Below are positions 32,699 through 49,221 of a stretch of 64,000 nucleotides of DNA, piece by piece. How positions within the stretch are numbered: the first letter of the stretch is position 1; each line of letters opens with the position of its first letter. Made by a program: the position numbers and the translations under genes. The notes under the pieces were generated by a model. That model made no database searches and was not told the DNA's origin. It saw only the letters and a program-made list of their open reading frames with translations. Origin of the DNA: Chrysophaeum taylorii. Taxonomy: Eukaryota > Sar > Pelagophyceae > Pelagomonadales > Pelagomonadaceae. Where the stretch lies: assembly GCA_029834535.1 (NCBI GenBank), contig JAQMWT010000370.1, positions 1 to 64,000 of the forward strand, given 5' to 3'.

Positions 32699-33665
32699 AT
32701 GCCAACGCACAAGCAATCGAGCGTCATGTTGTTCTTCGTCGTCGTTGCGTCGTTCCTCTCCACGGCGTCGCATGCCTTCGTGGCACCCGAGTCCAGGCCA
32801 GCCACCAAGCTCAATGCGCAGCAGCAGCAGCCTGACCTCTCTCTCATTCCCGGCGTCTACCCGGAGAAGTCGATGCCTGCCGACTACGGTGTGTTCGATG
32901 ACTACGGCGAGGCTCTTGATTCTTCTCGCGTGATGGGAGGACGCAGGCTTTGACCCCCTCGGCCTCACCAACTACGACTCGAACCTCGGGAGCGCTCGCG
33001 TCTAAGGTCGCAGCGTCTAAGGTCGCGGTCGTCAAGGATTACCGCGATGCCGAACTCCGACACGGCCGGCTCGCCATGCTCGCCGCGCTCGCGTGGCCCC
33101 TCCAAGAACTCGCGTCGCCGACTCTTGCGCACGACATCGGTGCGATGCTCTTGCTGACGGCCGACGGCCGCAGCCCTTCGGTCCTGAACGGCGGTCTCGG
33201 TGCCGGTCCGATTCCGCTCGTGCTCCTCGGCACCGCCGCTGCTATTGCAGTTATTGACCTCCGCGCGCTCAAGATCAAGGAAGATTCTGGCAAGGACTGG
33301 CTCCCAGGCGGTGCGTGTTGTTGCGAGAAAAGCGGCGGAATTGAGTTAATTTTATAGACTTTGGCTTGGACCCGTTGAAGATTCTCAAGGGTGCGTCGCC
33401 GCTCGCCATCAAAGACATGCAAGCCAAGGAAATCGACAACGGGTAAGAGCGAGCGAGCGAGCGAGCAAATTTCTTCTTTGCGACGACGACGAGCCTGCGC
33501 AGGCGGTTGGCGATGCTCGCGATCACGGCGTACGTTATCCAGGAAGTCATCACGGGCGAGCCGATCGTCGTCACATCGGAAGAGCTCTTCACGCCCATCT
33601 ACATGTACCCGTGGTTCCAAACGCTACTCGATCACGCCTTGGGCATTGCCTCTTTACGCGCATAG
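32699..33665 (+). CDS. Chlorophyll a/c-type light-harvesting protein (LHC/FCP superfamily), three exons
   Basis: Plastid thylakoid antenna protein. Exons are 32699-33310, 33358-33442 and 33503-33665. The precursor starts with a signal peptide (SVMLFFVVVASFLSTASHAFVAP) whose ASHAF/VAP cleavage region is the ASAFAP-type motif of secondary red plastids, then a transit peptide. Mature blocks are DAGFDPLGLTNYDSN, the first helix DYRDAELRHGRLAMLAALAW, then after intron 1 GDFGLDPLKILKG, and across intron 2 AKEIDNGRLAMLAITAYVIQE, the third helix. The middle helix is weaker (LVLLGTAAAIAVIDLRAL). Within exon 1 the frame slips twice (about 32935 and 32990), each as if one base were missing. Low-light or stress subtypes cannot be separated here. 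Confidence 0.88.
33311..33357 (+). other. 47-bp intron 1 of the LHC gene
   Basis: Donor GTGCGT, acceptor TTTATAG. It splits a GAC codon (G|AC) and restores LPGDFGLDPL. Confidence 0.85.
33443..33502 (+). other. 60-bp intron 2 of the LHC gene
   Basis: Donor GTAAGA, acceptor TGCGCAG. It splits a Gly codon (GG|G) and restores the helix-3 motif DNGRLAML. Confidence 0.85.
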
Positions 33666-40717: not shown

Positions 40718-41854
40718 ATGTTTTGGGGTCTGTTGGCGCTTTTTGTTGTTGGTGCGTCGGGGGTTCGCGTCGCGTATCTCGTGCTCGCGCACGACGAGGC
40801 GACGCTCCGCGCCGCCGCCCGGCTCGTGGACGTGCTGTACGACGAGGATGACACGTTTTTGGTACACATCGATTCGAAGTACGCGTCGCCCAAAGTCGAA
40901 CTACTGAGAGATGCGGTGAGATGGGCGCAACTGTTTGACGTTCAGTGGGCGCGGTGGAGCATGGTGGAGCCGACGCTGTGGGCGATGCGGGAGCTGGGGT
41001 CCGTCGAATGGGACGTGTTTATCAATTTGGCCGGAGATTCTTGGCCGGTTCTCGAACCCGTCAGCCTTAAACGTAAACTCGAGGACGTGAAACATTTGAA
41101 TTTCGTGACGTCGGGGCCCTCGTGTCCGACGGGGCTCCGCCCCACGGCTCGATCCGAGTTTGGGGACGGCTGGCACAAGAAACAAGCGTATCCTCATCCT
41201 ATGATAGGGGCGGTGCCGTCGCTCGAAGCTTATTACGGGTCTCAATGGATGATATTGAGTCGGCAGTTTGTGGAATTTGTGGTCGACGAGCTCAAGAACC
41301 CAGGGAGTCCCGCCGCGCTCTTGCGGAACTGGTTTGTCCACGGTTGGATGGACGTCCCCGACGTCGGCCGGGTTAAGCCTCACATTCCCGACGAAACTTT
41401 TTTTCCGTCCTTGTTAGCTTACCACAAATTTCCGTTGCCGTCCCCCGCGATGGTCATCGACGGAAAGGTAACGACGGCGACTTTTTACATCCGCATGGAC
41501 GAGCACTACCCGTGGTCCTCGGGAAAGCAGCGATATCTCGCGCCCGCCCTCGATCGCCGAGAACGGCCCTGGGGGCCCTACTACCTCGGAGCCTACGATT
41601 TGGCCGACATCCGGGCATCGGGTGCATTTTTTGTTCGAAAAACCTCCCCCCTCGTCGACCCCGCGCTCTTCCAGATTCTCCCCGTCGACGACCACGCGCG
41701 GATTCCTGCCTTGGCCTGGCCATCCCACCACCTCACCCTCTCGGACCCCCTGCCGGTGCTGCCCACCCTCGCCAACGGCTGCGTCCAGGTCGCCGAGTCG
41801 GTCCACTGTCCCCCCTCCCACACCCTCCGCCCCGATGCTGCCGAGCTCCGGTGA
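40718..41854 (+). CDS. GT14-type glycosyltransferase (core-2/I-branching family)
   Basis: A type II Golgi-type enzyme that adds N-acetylglucosamine or xylose to acceptor sugars. Starting at 40718 gives a hydrophobic anchor (MFWGLLALFVVGASG) followed at once by the family opening VRVAYLVLAHDEA and FLVHIDSKY. Later blocks are FINLAGDSWPVLEP (family LSGxDxPL region), the acceptor region YGSQWMILSRQFVEFVVD and PDETFFPSLL, the PDE-fF motif. The frame continues upstream to 40559, but those residues are Arg/Pro-rich and look untranslated. About 378 residues, no intron. TTD14-like gene starts 36 bases after the stop. Confidence 0.85.
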   Translation: MFWGLLALFVVGASGVRVAYLVLAHDEATLRAAARLVDVLYDEDDTFLVHIDSKYASPKVELLRDAVRWAQLFDVQWARWSMVEPTLWAMRELGSVEWDVFINLAGDSWPVLEPVSLKRKLEDVKHLNFVTSGPSCPTGLRPTARSEFGDGWHKKQAYPHPMIGAVPSLEAYYGSQWMILSRQFVEFVVDELKNPGSPAALLRNWFVHGWMDVPDVGRVKPHIPDETFFPSLLAYHKFPLPSPAMVIDGKVTTATFYIRMDEHYPWSSGKQRYLAPALDRRERPWGPYYLGAYDLADIRASGAFFVRKTSPLVDPALFQILPVDDHARIPALAWPSHHLTLSDPLPVLPTLANGCVQVAESVHCPPSHTLRPDAAELR

Positions 41855-41890
41855 CCCGGCATCCTTACTACTACTACTACTACTACTGCA

Positions 41891-43237
41891 ATGAGATTTC
41901 GATTTCGCTTTCACGACTTTTACCATCATCATCGACCAGCGTCTTGGTCGTCCCGAGCTGTGATACCCGCTGCAGCCGCGTCTGTCGCGGCGACCTACGC
42001 GAAGATGGAAGAAAAGCACCCGACCACCACCGCCTGGACCGTGACCCCCGCCTCCCTTGGCCCGCCGCGCGTCCACCGCATCGTCATAACCGGGGGTCCG
42101 TGCGCAGGGAAGACGACGGCGATGGCCAAGCTCCAGCTGCGGCTCACGGACATGGGGTTCGCGGTCTACGTTGTCCCCGAGCTCGCAACCCTGACGATCA
42201 CGGGAGGCGCGTCCCCCGGCACGTATTCCCGGGCGGAATTCGTCGCTTGGGAGACCGCGCTGCTCCGGGGCCAGATGGACCTGGAAGATCGTTTCGCCGA
42301 GATCGCTAATCACTGCTCCGCCGACAAGCACAGCGTGCTGCTGTGCGACCGCGGGACGATGGACGTCCTCGCGTACGTGGGCCAAGATGCATTCCTCGAA
42401 ATTCTCGAAGAGAACGCGTGGACCGTACCCCAGCTCAGAGACAAGAGATACAATGCGGTCATACATCTCGTAACTGCGGCGATCGGCGCCGAAGACTTTT
42501 ACACGCTCGAGAACAACAAGGCACGGATGGAAACTCCCGACGAAGCGAGGAGCCTCGACGGCAGATTGTCGCGCGCCTGGATCGGTCATAACTCGCTCCG
42601 TATCATCGAGAATTCTGGCAGTTTCGAGGAGAAAATGGTGCGGGTGCAGCAAGCCGTGTGCGAGTCTTTGGGCGTCCCGGGGCCCCGCGCTACGCCGAGA
42701 TGGTGGATCGTCGAGATCGACTTTGGAAATTGGCCCGATTCTCTCGAGTACGCCGAGTGGCAGTTAGAGCACGTCTTCTTAAAAAAAACGAACGGCAACG
42801 AGTCGAGGGTGACTAAAAAATCACAACCCCAGTCCACGACATACCACCTGCGCGTCGCGGGCGCGGTCGTCAACGGCGAGCAGTCCATATCCGAGCGAGT
42901 CCTCTCCTTCCGCGAATACAAGGCGCTCCTCGTCCAGGCCGACCTCGAGAGGTCGCCCATCCGCAAGACTCGCCGCGCCTTCATCTGGCACAACGAGTAC
43001 TACCTCATCGACTCCTTCCAATCCCCGCCCCAGACCGCCGGCGTCACCACCCTCTTCATCGAGGCTCCCATATCCGAGTCCACCAAACGCGAACTCCCCC
43101 CCTTCGTCAATCTCAAAGAGGACGTCACGCAGCGCAAGTGGTTCACCACCCTCGCCCACGACTCCTGGAAACGGACCATGGCGATGGCCGACGAAATCTC
43201 CAGCACCAAACCCCCGCCGTCTCCAAAGCGTCCGTAG
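41891..43237 (+). CDS. TTD14-like P-loop protein (AAA_28 domain plus CYTH-like tail)
   Basis: A 448-residue protein with a P-loop, VHRIVITGGPCAGKTTAMAK, near residue 65, VLLCDRGTMD (Walker B-like) and LVTAAIGAEDFYTLENNKAR, all typical of the AAA_28/NadR-like kinase domain of Drosophila TTD14 and its relatives. The C-terminal half (STTYHLRVAGAVVNGEQSIS, FREYKALLVQADLER, IWHNEYYLIDSFQ) resembles the CYTH-like fold found in the same proteins. In flies TTD14 binds GTP and phosphatidic acid and affects TRPL movement; the role in algae is unknown. An alternative start is Met-39 (about 42005). A GAAC microsatellite begins at the stop codon. Confidence 0.75.
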   Translation: MRFRFRFHDFYHHHRPASWSSRAVIPAAAASVAATYAKMEEKHPTTTAWTVTPASLGPPRVHRIVITGGPCAGKTTAMAKLQLRLTDMGFAVYVVPELATLTITGGASPGTYSRAEFVAWETALLRGQMDLEDRFAEIANHCSADKHSVLLCDRGTMDVLAYVGQDAFLEILEENAWTVPQLRDKRYNAVIHLVTAAIGAEDFYTLENNKARMETPDEARSLDGRLSRAWIGHNSLRIIENSGSFEEKMVRVQQAVCESLGVPGPRATPRWWIVEIDFGNWPDSLEYAEWQLEHVFLKKTNGNESRVTKKSQPQSTTYHLRVAGAVVNGEQSISERVLSFREYKALLVQADLERSPIRKTRRAFIWHNEYYLIDSFQSPPQTAGVTTLFIEAPISESTKRELPPFVNLKEDVTQRKWFTTLAHDSWKRTMAMADEISSTKPPPSPKRP

Positions 43238-43319
43238 AACGAACGAACGAACGAACGAACGAACGAACGAACGAACGAACGAACGAACGAACGAACGAAC
43301 GAACGAACGAACGAACAAA
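43237..43319 (+). repeat. GAAC tetranucleotide microsatellite
   Basis: About twenty perfect GAAC units start within the TTD14-like stop region (TAGAACGAAC) and end at AACAAACGCCC. Confidence 0.95.
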
Positions 43320-43386
43320 CGCCCGCTCCCTCCCTCCCTCCAAGTTATTATTATTACTATATTTGTGTCGCGCCGCTATTGTAGTA

Positions 43387-43443
43387 GGGGAGCATGAAGG
43401 ATGTGGGTGGGTTTGTGGGGTATGAGGGATGTGCCTGACGGGC
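43387..43443 (-). repeat. Dispersed 57-bp repeat, copy B
   Basis: Reverse-complement match, with about three differences, to 32463-32519 inside the insert of Helitron copy 4. Confidence 0.8.
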
Positions 43444-43553
43444 GGTAGTAAGGGCCTTCTTTCTCGTCGCAATGGCCGCCGTTTTTTTCTTGATGCACCA
43501 CTCCGAACCAAAAAAAAGGAATGGAGTCTGCCTGCCTCTGACTCTCCTTCGAC

Positions 43554-44589: not shown

Positions 44590-44655
44590 CCAACCAAAGG
44601 GGGGGGGGCGTTCCGCTCCGTTCCGTTCCGTTCCGTTCGGTTTCGATTTATTTAT

Positions 44656-47600
44656 TTATATCCAATTACAGGCGGCCGTCTCGACGGCGTGCCACATGTA
44701 CCAGGAGCCGATGGTGCGGTAGGGTCGCCACGCCTGGGCGATTTCTTCCATCTGGCCGCGGGTGGGGAGGTCGTTCACCAAAGTCGCCGTCTGCTGCTGC
44801 TGCTGCTTCCGGCGGAGGAGAGTAGCGTGGTAGAGTTTTTTGAAGGCTTTTTGGACGGCGAGATCGCCAACGGGGAGGACGTCGGGTCTCCCGAGGCCAA
44901 ACATCAAAAACATGTGGCTCGACCACTCCCCGATTCCCCTCACTTGGGTGAGCGTCTTGACCACCGCGTCGTCGTCGAGAGACTGGAACAGACCCTCGGA
45001 GAGCGTTCCGTTGTCGAAGAGTTCGGCGATATTTCTGACGTATTCCGCTTTGGTCTTCGAGAGGCCGACGGTGCCGCCGACCTTTGGAGACAGCAAAACC
45101 GTCTCGTCGACGGCGAGGAGCGATTTTGGCGAAAACGAATCGCCACCGCCGCCACACGCGGCTTCGAGCCTCTCGAAAATCCTGCGCGCCACCGTCGTGC
45201 TGAGCTGTTGGTAAACGATAGATCTGGTCAAAGACCTCCAGGGATCTGCCGGGAGTTTCTCGAGCATGGCCGTCGGCGGTCCAACTTGCGCGATGAGCGA
45301 GGCGAGGCGGGCGTCCGCTCTGCGCAGGTGCTCGAGGGCAAGCGGCATCGTCGCGGTCGCCAGCGGTTCTGGAACGGGGTTCGCGGACGCGAACACCCTG
45401 AAGACTTTTAATTTCTTTGCCCTAGAAGAAGAAGAAGAAGAAGAAGAAGAAGAAGAAGGACGACGACGACGACGACCAAGGGGGGTCACTACCACGTCCT
45501 CGTCCTGTTGTTGTTCCCTGAGCTGGGCTTCGATGACCCGGTCCTGGAAGGTGCGGGCCAGGGGGTCCAGGTAGTGCCTGAAGAAGGAGCCGCACAACCG
45601 AATATTCTCGGCCTCGGCCACTTCGATCGTATTGGCAGCCGCGATAACGTAGAGATCGAGATCGTCGCGACGTTGGCCCGGCCTGTCGACGCGACCCTTC
45701 ATCTGCTCCAGAACGTCGCCCGGCTGCGGCCGGCAGACGATCGCGTCGTAGGTCTGGAGGTTGAGCCCGCGCGCGCCCTCGGAGACTGTGAACACCGCCG
45801 CCGCCGCTGCTGCGTCAATAACTTTTGACAATTTTTCGAGCTCGGAGGTCGTGTTCGCGAAGACGAGGGGTCGACGACCCACCTTCCGGAGCTCGGCGAC
45901 GCGCGAAACGACGGCGTCTATCAGAATTTTAGGTTCGTAATTGTCGCGGAGAAATTTCTTCGAGGCAACGTAGAGCTCGCGGGGCGAGCTGCGGCCCGCG
46001 GCGACGCGCTTCCGGTACTCCGCTCCGAGGGTCGGCGGGAGCTCGATCTCGTCGAGGTGGAGATGCCATCGACGACCGGCTTCCGGCACGAAACAGACCA
46101 AATGTTCGCGGAGGAGCGTAGGGAGAAACCCGGGCGCGCGCGGGAGCGGCGACCGCAGCATGCGTATCATGTAGAATAACGAGGCGAACGAGGACCGAAA
46201 GAGCGTCGCCGAGAGCATCAAGACCCCGCACCGCGAGGCCACTACCGAGCGCCACGCTTCGGCGGCTTGCATCGCTGTTTCCGATTGGACGGATACGCAT
46301 TCGTCGATCACGACTAAATCCCAGCCCGGCTGGTTGACGAAGGGATGGTCGCGGTGGCGCGCCAAGGTCGTCACGACGAGCGAAGCCCCTCCGAGCGATT
46401 TCTTCTTGCCCAAAAGGGCGCCGTTCGGCCTCTGGACCACTACCTCGAACCCTTCGGCGTGAGCTTTGGCTTGGCGCGTCCACTCCTCGACGAGGGACGC
46501 GGTCGGACACAACACGAGACACCCGGTTCGACGCGAGAGCAACGAGCTGATTCGCGCGCACACCGCTAGGGCAGTCAGAGTCTTGCCGGCGCCAACGGCC
46601 GACGCGTCCGCGAATCCTCTCTTTCCTTCCTTGATTCCCGCGACCACCTTCTCCACCGCGTCTCTCTGGTGCGGCCACAGAGCCGTCGTCACCCTAGGAG
46701 TTGTTGCTTCTTTGTCTTGGTGCTGCCACGGCGCGGCGAACATGGACAGGTGTCCGCCGTCGGGCATGGCCCCGAGGTTGAGCGAAGGCCGACCGTCGTC
46801 GTCGTCATCGTCTTCTTCTTCCAGACTCGGCCGGTCGTCGTCCACGACCGTCCGTACTGGCGCGAGCCGCCGGCGCTTGACAACAACAACAGCAGCAGCA
46901 TCTTTTTTGTGCGCGTTGAGCACAGATCTGTCGTCGTAGGCGCCAAACGCGAGCACGGATAGGGTCCTGTGGAGATGGGCGAAGCATTCGGGAGCAAATT
47001 CGTAATCGACGCGGAACGCGAGTTCCCCGACGCGTTCAACCAACGGATGATAGAGCATTGCCAGAACATAATAAATCCGGAGGACTACGCCCTCCGTCAT
47101 CTGCTGGACTGCCTTTCGGGCGCGCGTTCCGTCGCGACCGCAACACGCGATTTCCACTCTTCCGTCGTCGTCGCGACATTCTAGTTTTACGAACGCGTCG
47201 CGCCACGCGCCGCGCGGCACCGGCGATGCCTCGGCGATCGCCATCCAGTCGGGGATGAAGTCCGTTTTTTCCTCTTCCAGGTCCCTCAAAACCTCGAGGC
47301 CGTTGCTCGGTTCGACGTAGAGGGCCCTTCTCAGTATCGACTCGAGACGAGGCGAAAGAGCGGCGGCGGGCGGCGAGCCGCACGGCGCCAGAAACCGCGA
47401 AGCGTCGAACGCCGGCACCGGTTCGCCGTTGATCGCGAATTCGTCCTTCCAATCCACTACCGTCACGCGGCGCCGCCACCTAAACCCGAGGGGCGGTCGC
47501 GGCACGTTATTCTCGAAATATTTAGGAAAAGAGCGGCGGAGCGCCAGCTCGATCTCCGGCGTCGCTTCTATCGTCTTTCCGTCTCTTTGCGCTACCACCG

Positions 47601-47756
47601 GCTTCGCGGGCGAGCCCGCGAGCATCACCTCGACGCCGTCCGCCGTTTCGACGCATTCCGCGAATAGACAAAGAAACGCCGTCCGCGCCTCGAGCGCAGT
47701 CGGTTCCCGGCCACCACGCTTGCTCTCCTCTCGACGACCCGCCCGCGGCTCCTCTT

Positions 47757-47793
<37 letters not shown>

Positions 47794-49221
47794 TAGGGCC
47801 GCGCGCAGCTCGGTTTGAAGCTCCCTCACCACGACCTCGAGTCGCTGCTCCTCGAGAGTCAGCCGCCTGCGCACGCTTCTTGTCTCGACGATTGCCGCGT
47901 CGTCGTCTTTCGCGGCCACGAAAGACGAGAACCGGGTGGTGTCCGCCGGCATCATCACCTCCCTAGCGTTCAGGCCCGACGAGAGCCGGTAGACGAGGTC
48001 GGCCAGAGCTCGCAACGAGTGCTGCTCTGGCATCGACGGTACCTCCGGAAGCGTAGCTTGGAGCAAAATCAAGAACGAGGGTCTCAGCGCGTGATCGTAG
48101 GCGCTCAAGTCGGCAGCGTCGTCGCCCTCGGAGTTTCCCTCTATTACCTCAACCCCCAGCGGCACCAGCGGCGGTCCCTTTTCCTCCTCCTCGAGACGAG
48201 CCAGGACGCGCTCAAAACACGGATTGTTCTTCTGCCTCAGTCTCAAAACGAGTCGCAGGCCGTCTCTGTCTGGCGCGTCGAATTCAAAATCCAACGAAGA
48301 AGGGATTTTCGATCCCCAGCCCCGCCACGGCCAGAGCGATTCGGGAGAATCTCGCGCCCACAGCCCCGCCGCGAGACGTCGGAGGGCATCGCACCGTTCG
48401 ACGGATAATCGAAACCGGCGATCCTCGGAGGCAGCGATCCACAGCGACGCTGTCGTCGCCATCGACAACTCGCCGCGCCACGGCGACGACGCGGCCAAAG
48501 CCGTCGACAAAATAACCCGCAGCGCGGCGCACGTTCCCGACTCGCCCGACGCGCTCGAGGGTTCGCGTGCCGAAACAAGCTTATCGAGCGCGTCGAGAAC
48601 CACGCGTCGCGAGCACAGCGCGGCCCCGCGGCACAGGGCCTTCCCGAGCTTTGACCCCAACGTCCGCACTTCGCACGATCTCCTCGAGAACCGAACGAGC
48701 GGGTCTCGACTCTTAAGAGGAAAAACTTTTTTCGGCGCGGCTCCCGTCTCGATGCCATCGACCCCAAGCACCACCGCCAGTCCCTCGCAGTTCTCCACGA
48801 GCCGGTACTTCAACGAGGAGTCTTCTTCTTCTTCTTCTTCGAAGAAGAAGGAGTTCCATCGCCCGAACCTCGTCTCGAGCTTTCTGATTTCCACCACCGC
48901 GGGGCTCAGGCCCCTGGCAACCGCGAGCCGTCGGACTTCGTCCCTCCCCAACCACATAGCCTCCTCCTCCTCGACGATCATTGCGTACGTCGCGCGCAGG
49001 CCCGTCTCCTCGAACAACTCTGCGGCGCTCGCGAATCGTCTCCCCACAATCTCAGGATCGCCACGCTCAACCGTCAGCGCCACGACGTCCGTGATGAGCG
49101 CCTTCGACGACCCCCCCATCGCGTGGGGTTGGACCGCGCTCTCCACGCGGACGGCCATCTCCTCCGAACAGGCCACGCCCCCGGCCGCAATGCCCACCGC
49201 GCCCACGCACCGATCCTTCAT
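44656..49221 (-). CDS. SNF2-like SF2 helicase fused to an AlkA/MAG-type 3-methyladenine DNA glycosylase
   Basis: One uninterrupted 1521-codon frame. Residues 1-830 are unfamiliar, with a poly-Thr run near 485 and an acidic stretch near 820. The helicase spans about 850-1210: LWPHQRDAVEKVVAG, Walker A VGAGKT (about 875), motif II VIDECVS (about 972), motif III LSATLF (about 1002) and the SNF2-type motif VI QMKGRVDRPGQ (about 1172). A Ser-rich linker precedes the glycosylase, about 1290-1521: RSIVYQQLSTTVARRIFERL, the helix-hairpin-helix QVRGIGEWSSHMFLMF, the catalytic Asp in VLPVGDLAVQKAF (about 1452) and WRPYRTIGSWYMW. AlkA-type enzymes excise alkylated bases. The fusion suggests remodelling-coupled base excision repair (inference). 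Confidence 0.88.

Follow-up and report, generated by a model that had tools for sequence, protein, structure and literature searches.

Chrysophaeum taylorii (Pelagophyceae) carries, on contig JAQMWT010000370.1 of assembly GCA_029834535.1, an open reading frame (ORF) in which an SNF2-like motor shares one frame with an AlkA/MAG-type DNA glycosylase. The ORF lies in a stretch of 64,000 nucleotides (nt) of this contig, positions 1 to 64,000 (hereafter the window), at positions 44656-49221 of the minus strand, the strand that encodes all parts of the protein discussed below. With moderate confidence, it is read as one nuclear gene whose product would act in DNA repair and in which an SNF2-like, ATP-driven motor is followed, via a flexible Arg/Ser linker, by a C-terminal AlkA/MAG glycosylase. 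The frame, both domains, their catalytic motifs and the single copy can be read from the sequence itself, and the genome search gave neither a further MAG-type match nor any AAG-type one. This is probably a new domain architecture in one repair protein, as judged from one genome.

An earlier note, made from the letters of the window, had described one uninterrupted 1521-codon gene at this place, and this proved to be exact. The frame comprises 1521 amino acids plus a stop, and when the full protein was searched against its own assembly (70.8 Mb in 697 contigs, as in all own-genome searches described here), the self-match was the only one at E 0.001, which indicates a single, uninterrupted copy. 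When the ORF is divided into 26 blocks of 60 codons, 21 blocks have their highest content of guanine plus cytosine (GC) at the third codon position. A codon-usage model trained on ten other ORFs of the window, which were picked for length and together comprise 5715 codons, ranks the frame first among all six in 33 of the 37 scoring windows listed, and the two other forward frames contain 49 and 18 stops per 1521 codons. The GC pattern, the codon usage and the stop-laden other frames therefore mark the ORF as coding and not as a chance frame.

The C-terminal domain, residues 1292-1521 (44659-45348), starts at an internal methionine and is by its sequence an AlkA/MAG-type helix-hairpin-helix (HhH) glycosylase, for which excision of alkylated bases is predicted. 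The Pfam family HhH-GPD (PF00730) matches residues 1333-1469 with E 1e-12 and 48.7 bits against a curated cut-off of 26.2. By sequence, the nearest PDB entries (2h56, 3s6i and 4hsb) are the B. halodurans enzyme 2h56 (E 3.5e-23) and S. pombe Mag1 and Mag2 (E 7e-17 to 9e-17), and an 8-oxoguanine glycosylase follows far behind these MAG/AlkA enzymes at E 0.61. Bacterial relatives of the domain are up to 41% identical by tblastn. No iron-sulfur (FeS) cluster family was present among the Pfam matches of the 1521-residue protein at E up to 1. The core of the helix-hairpin-helix, GIGEW at residues 1429-1433 (44923-44937), aligns with the B. halodurans and S. pombe enzymes, and the catalytic Asp1453 (44863-44865), held in a VGD motif, forms an invariant column in alignments A1 and A5. 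Alignment A5, a mixed one, was afterwards dropped, since it placed viral RecA2 rows over the glycosylase. Compared with the three solved enzymes, the algal domain has a 16-column insert after the helix of the catalytic Asp. The HhH-GPD domain and the catalytic Asp are common to the algal domain, 2h56, Mag1 and Mag2, and the GIGxW hairpin is found in 2h56 and Mag1; unlike these enzymes, the algal domain is carried on 1291 further residues that include a motor.

This motor (residues ~848-1240) appears from its sequence to be divergent, reduced and far from the other SNF2 proteins of the same genome; the best-scoring other protein of that genome is 26% identical over RecA1 (E 0.0013). The RecA1 lobe, residues 848-1023 (46153-46680), contains the Walker A motif VGAGKT at residue 876, motif II (DECV) at 973 and motif III (LSATLF) at 1003. 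Within residues 848-1022, the Pfam families DEAD (E 4.5e-11), ResIII (8.5e-11) and SNF2-rel_dom (1.1e-7) all exceed their cut-offs, SNF2-rel_dom with 31.7 bits against 24.9 and DEAD and ResIII with higher scores. A genome-wide search with PF00176 returned 37 places, and the motor gene was not among them, although a direct scan finds the domain. The RecA2 lobe, residues ~1100-1240 (45502-45924), holds motif IV at 1117, motif V at 1147 and motif VI (QMKGRVDRPGQ) at 1173, and has weak matches to RapA, DpdE and DrmD. The motor was also aligned with 28 SNF2-type helicases from viral contigs (alignment A6). At least 600 stretches had been matched, 170 were confirmed and 80 were kept, 53 of these 80 were found again by tblastn at E 1e-3, and 28 of the 53 entered the alignment. 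Motifs I, Ia, II, III, V and VI are kept in order, and motifs V and VI align despite the weak Helicase_C score. This motif order is common to the superfamily 2 (SF2) motors of the SNF2 family, including phrog_62 and phrog_16, RapA, DpdE, DrmD and the eukaryotic remodelers, from which the algal motor differs by its DECV, its shorter inter-lobe connection and its shorter RecA2. A profile search of alignment A3 against the PDB was driven by the canonical SNF2 row of that alignment and was not taken as independent evidence.

Several observations weigh against a working remodelling motor. The Helicase_C family stays below its cut-off on RecA2 (E 0.13, 13.0 against 23.5 bits), motif II has V at its fourth position, and, compared with the 28 aligned helicases, about 25 residues are lacking at an Ala6 run that lies between motifs IV and V. 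This absence corresponds to 25 gap columns of alignment A6 at the D-A6-V junction, residues 1136-1143 (45793-45816), and covers the LDG strand plus the following helix; MAFFT set the gap a few residues later, and its placement before AVFTVSEGARGLNL is our own reading. The segment between motifs III and IV is also shorter than in the 28 helicases. In addition, Pfam matched no domain that binds histones or nucleosomes (bromo, chromo, HSA, SANT/SLIDE or macro), with E up to 1 admitted for the full-length protein and E up to 10 for residues 1-832, in searches whose HMMER filters drop weak matches. The motor, being reduced in RecA2, may be weak or inactive. The short RecA2, the Helicase_C score and DECV would all suit a single protein in which the motor is a degenerate ATPase, retained as a DNA-binding or scaffolding arm while the glycosylase alone works. 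This is considered somewhat unlikely, as the Walker A lysine (GKT), the DE of motif II, the SAT of motif III and both arginines of motif VI are kept, a pattern that decay would not favour. Also, the absent strand-helix unit would, by general fold knowledge, be at the edge of the RecA2 sheet, and because of this position its absence need not abolish the folding of the lobe.

These results bear on the earlier note in different ways. Its central claim, that an SNF2-like motor and an AlkA/MAG-type glycosylase share one frame, is borne out by the Pfam scores and by the PDB matches to MAG enzymes. Its statement that all key motifs of both enzymes are present is correct for the motifs as such, from VGAGKT, DECV, LSATLF and QMKGRVDRPGQ to GIGEW and Asp1453, but the motor was overstated, given the sub-threshold Helicase_C, the DECV and the residues missing between motifs IV and V.

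The lowest E-values for the motor in any library came from the phage DNA-helicase families phrog_62 (5.3e-19) and phrog_16 (2e-14), which would be expected if a viral or mobile-element gene had been caught in the algal genome. Such an origin is highly improbable. The aligned viral helicases are just 23-27% identical to the motor, and the exact motif VI pattern occurs in 0 stretches of the viral contigs. The codon usage learned from the ten window ORFs fits the gene, and its neighbours are ordinary cellular genes, seven of the nine neighbouring ORFs scanned belonging to ordinary families such as a tRNA synthetase, an Na/H exchanger, a sulfatase and an RRM-PWI protein. Single-sequence queries of the viral contigs with the whole protein, the motor or the glycosylase confirmed no relative. 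Among 50,697 phage records the motor had a single tblastn match at E 0.01, and among 72,556 plasmid records it had six; 19-42% of the motor was covered.

Motor and glycosylase are connected by a linker of residues 1241-1291 (45349-45501), with Arg5 and Ser11 tracts encoded by GTC/TCT microsatellites. Here the reading as one gene is challenged. The coding signal is lost in the scoring windows over residues 1216-1290, which contain the Arg5/Ser11 microsatellites (the windows that do not favour the frame start at residues 1216, 1231 and 1246, and also at 241), and Met1292 is aligned where free-standing bacterial MAG enzymes begin. There could instead be two adjacent genes on the same strand, of which the first, for the motor, ends through a short intron that changes the frame and lies within the linker or shortly before it, while the second encodes a free-standing MAG enzyme that starts at Met1292. 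Two plus-strand ORFs nearby are just 36 bp apart (41854 to 41891), which speaks for such an arrangement.

Introns of this genome appear extremely short and uniform. An intron of 43 nt was recognized by eye in the MutY gene (L003), scripted analysis gave 43 nt in L184, L189a and L189b and 49 nt in L185, and L188, L190 and L193 were ambiguous; L003, L184, L185 and L189 are on contigs C294, C435, C548 and C379.

Because introns of about 43 nt occur in the genome, splicing at the linker was tested by a scan around it for any GT-AG pair 30-250 nt apart, in which possible branch-point adenines were counted. This resulted in 37 candidates. Nine of them keep the frame and the glycosylase, four with motif VI kept and five with motif VI removed. 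A frame shift with loss of the glycosylase would follow from the other 28, of which 19 keep motif VI, an outcome that would correspond to two genes. However, 13 of the 19 use a (TCT)nAG acceptor at residue 1267 and lack adenines in the stretch 12-45 nt upstream of their 3' end; the six of these that are 40-55 nt long have no adenine at all before the last AG and therefore no branch point. The remaining six of the 19 are 44-128 nt long, have their acceptors at residue 1215 or 1227, contain 4 to 6 adenines in the possible branch-point stretch and include one of 44 nt with its donor at residue 1201, which speaks for two genes. Past these acceptors, codon usage favours the present frame up to residue 1249, which a shift would leave. 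Before the repeats (residues 1216-1249) the frame scores 0.22 nats per codon against -0.53 and -0.67 in the others, after the acceptor (residues 1228-1249) 0.16 against -0.65 and -0.69, and past the repeats, upstream of Met1292 (residues 1268-1291), 0.18 against -0.43 and 0.03, all three comparisons being based on short stretches. If no splicing occurs, the two domains are not separated by any stop, and their common frame would be a coincidence if they were two genes. Two separate genes are thus judged unlikely, and on the sequence evidence a single gene is favoured with good confidence.

The repeats at the linker and at the Ala6 run, the two suspicious places, also raise the question of an assembly artefact, in which a collapse or a small indel at a microsatellite would have created the fusion or the short RecA2. 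In the same assembly, two near-identical light-harvesting copies differ by a frameshift (L187 and L201). Both suspicious places are in frame, the rest of the ORF is open and the gene is single-copy, and an artefact is considered very unlikely.

The N-terminal region, residues 1-832 (46726-49221), belongs to no recognized family, in agreement with the earlier description of about 830 unassigned residues. No Pfam family exceeds its cut-off in this region, nothing better than E 0.027 was found in the PDB, and in the algal genome the next match after the self-match has E 0.046, with no convincing paralogue. Two weak own-genome matches seem to be due to chance, one being antisense to an 814-residue frame and the other overlapping a Thr run. 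An HNH_repeat-like stretch (PF18780) at residues 94-125 (48847-48942) was matched below the cut-off, with E 0.12 and 0.074, and may contain putative DNA-binding helices. AlphaFold, run on the single sequence of the region, gave a mean predicted local distance difference test (pLDDT) score of 37. Scores of 50-73 were obtained across most of residues 54-113, the longest part of the model above 50, which overlaps the HNH_repeat-like match.

Relatives of the glycosylase were examined at 85 prokaryotic and viral loci, comprising five from viral contigs and, out of 587 relatives confirmed in genome contigs, the best 80. In none of the 85 was the motor found near the glycosylase at E 1e-3, some loci having only 3-6 kb of DNA, so that no relative with the same fusion was seen among these prokaryotic and viral loci. 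Among the seven longest glycosylase ORFs of these loci, Pfam detected HhH-GPD alone in five and also MGMT in two. Bacterial fusions of an MGMT DNA-binding domain with HhH-GPD (L036:4410-5609 and L020:480-1760) likewise join a MAG-type domain to another repair domain, but there the partner is a methyltransferase domain, whereas the algal partner is a motor. A tree of the glycosylases was built from 62 rows, namely 58 of the 85 loci, the alga and three solved enzymes; the 27 loci left out were 25 bacterial ones (Burkholderiales or betaproteobacterial by title) and the viral L011 and L014. In this tree, the algal glycosylase forms an open fork beside L027 and is placed outside the supported clade of S. 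pombe Mag1 and Mag2 with L013. None of the titles and abstract openings listed by searches of open-licence PMC papers mentions an SNF2-glycosylase fusion, which is no proof of absence.

Four places with HhH-GPD have been identified in the genome: the motor fusion, an OGG1-type gene with OGG_N (by Pfam), and NTH-like and MutY-like genes (by eye, from translations). The fusion gene carries the only MAG-type domain found, and no match to the AAG/MPG fold (PF02245) was obtained in the genome search; these family searches were six-frame and intron-blind, so that absences are not absolute. One Tag-type match is present, and the fusion need not be the sole 3-methyladenine glycosylase of the alga, a point against the main reading. 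Two MGMT-type places were also found, one with an in-frame TGA (C695:62265-62516, L207) and the second, on C675, open.

Other features of the genome and the window were noted. The genome contains 84 matches to chlorophyll-binding proteins, of which one was examined and had its best PDB matches among fucoxanthin chlorophyll a/c proteins (E 5e-80), and by sequence these light-harvesting genes fit an alga of the red, fucoxanthin-containing lineage. The near-identical light-harvesting genes at C684:2600-3400 (L187) and C684:20400-21100 (L201) include one that is split over two frames, either a pseudogene or an assembly indel, and C309:303127-303599 (L186) is likewise split over two frames. Contigs C88 and C539 carry light-harvesting arrays of five copies each, with equal or nearly equal scores. 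A weak match to chlorophyll-binding proteins was observed in the window at 33025-33309 of the plus strand (E 1.2e-5). Low-complexity tracts occupy window positions 42821-43511 and 44609-44642, where some ORFs are in part made up of FVRS repeats and a (CGTTC)n array separates two converging ORFs at their 3' ends.

The human remodeler ALC1 (CHD1L), which has a macrodomain, and the glycosylase MPG, whose fold is unrelated to that of HhH glycosylases, are two separate proteins, unlike the algal frame. They likewise pair an SNF2 remodeler functionally with an alkylbase glycosylase, as described in PMC7895907. According to that paper, loss of ALC1 in human cells leads to sensitivity to methyl methanesulfonate (MMS), which is suppressed by depletion of MPG, and its authors infer that nucleosome remodelling is needed after base excision and before APEX1. 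Loss of HELLS also sensitises cells to alkylation, as stated in PMC12651568. The same paper reports that the ATPase activity of HELLS appeared dispensable for survival after alkylation; the role of a remodeler in alkylation survival therefore need not be motor work, which argues against the coupling proposed here. Plant DML/DEMETER proteins and MBD4 are also large or multi-domain eukaryotic HhH-GPD proteins (PMC6728418) but, unlike the algal protein, act on 5-methylcytosine or mismatches and have an FeS cluster or an MBD as partner.

In the proposed working of the single protein, the motor would move along or loosen packed DNA, with the N-terminal region as the likely DNA or chromatin anchor. 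The HhH glycosylase would then flip out and hydrolyse N-alkylated bases such as 3-methyladenine with Asp1453, after which the motor would help make the abasic site accessible to the enzyme that acts next in repair. One transcript, a nuclear location, both activities and their coupling are inferred for such a protein. The motor could equally serve the glycosylase as a DNA clamp, either static or translocating. More tentatively, the protein can be seen as a one-polypeptide machine for base excision in chromatin, in which base removal and the clearing of packed DNA would be one step. It would then be a fused counterpart of human ALC1 and MPG that arose independently, with a glycosylase of another fold and a motor that is phage-like and reduced.

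It is not yet settled how glycosylases gain access to damaged bases within nucleosomes; separate proteins are involved in human cells. If the proposed working is true, a natural fusion of motor and glycosylase would be direct evidence that these two steps form a unit. It would also offer one purified protein with which ATP-dependent base excision from nucleosomes could be measured, and it would show that, among the repair enzymes of this alga, the only MAG-type domain found is attached to a motor.

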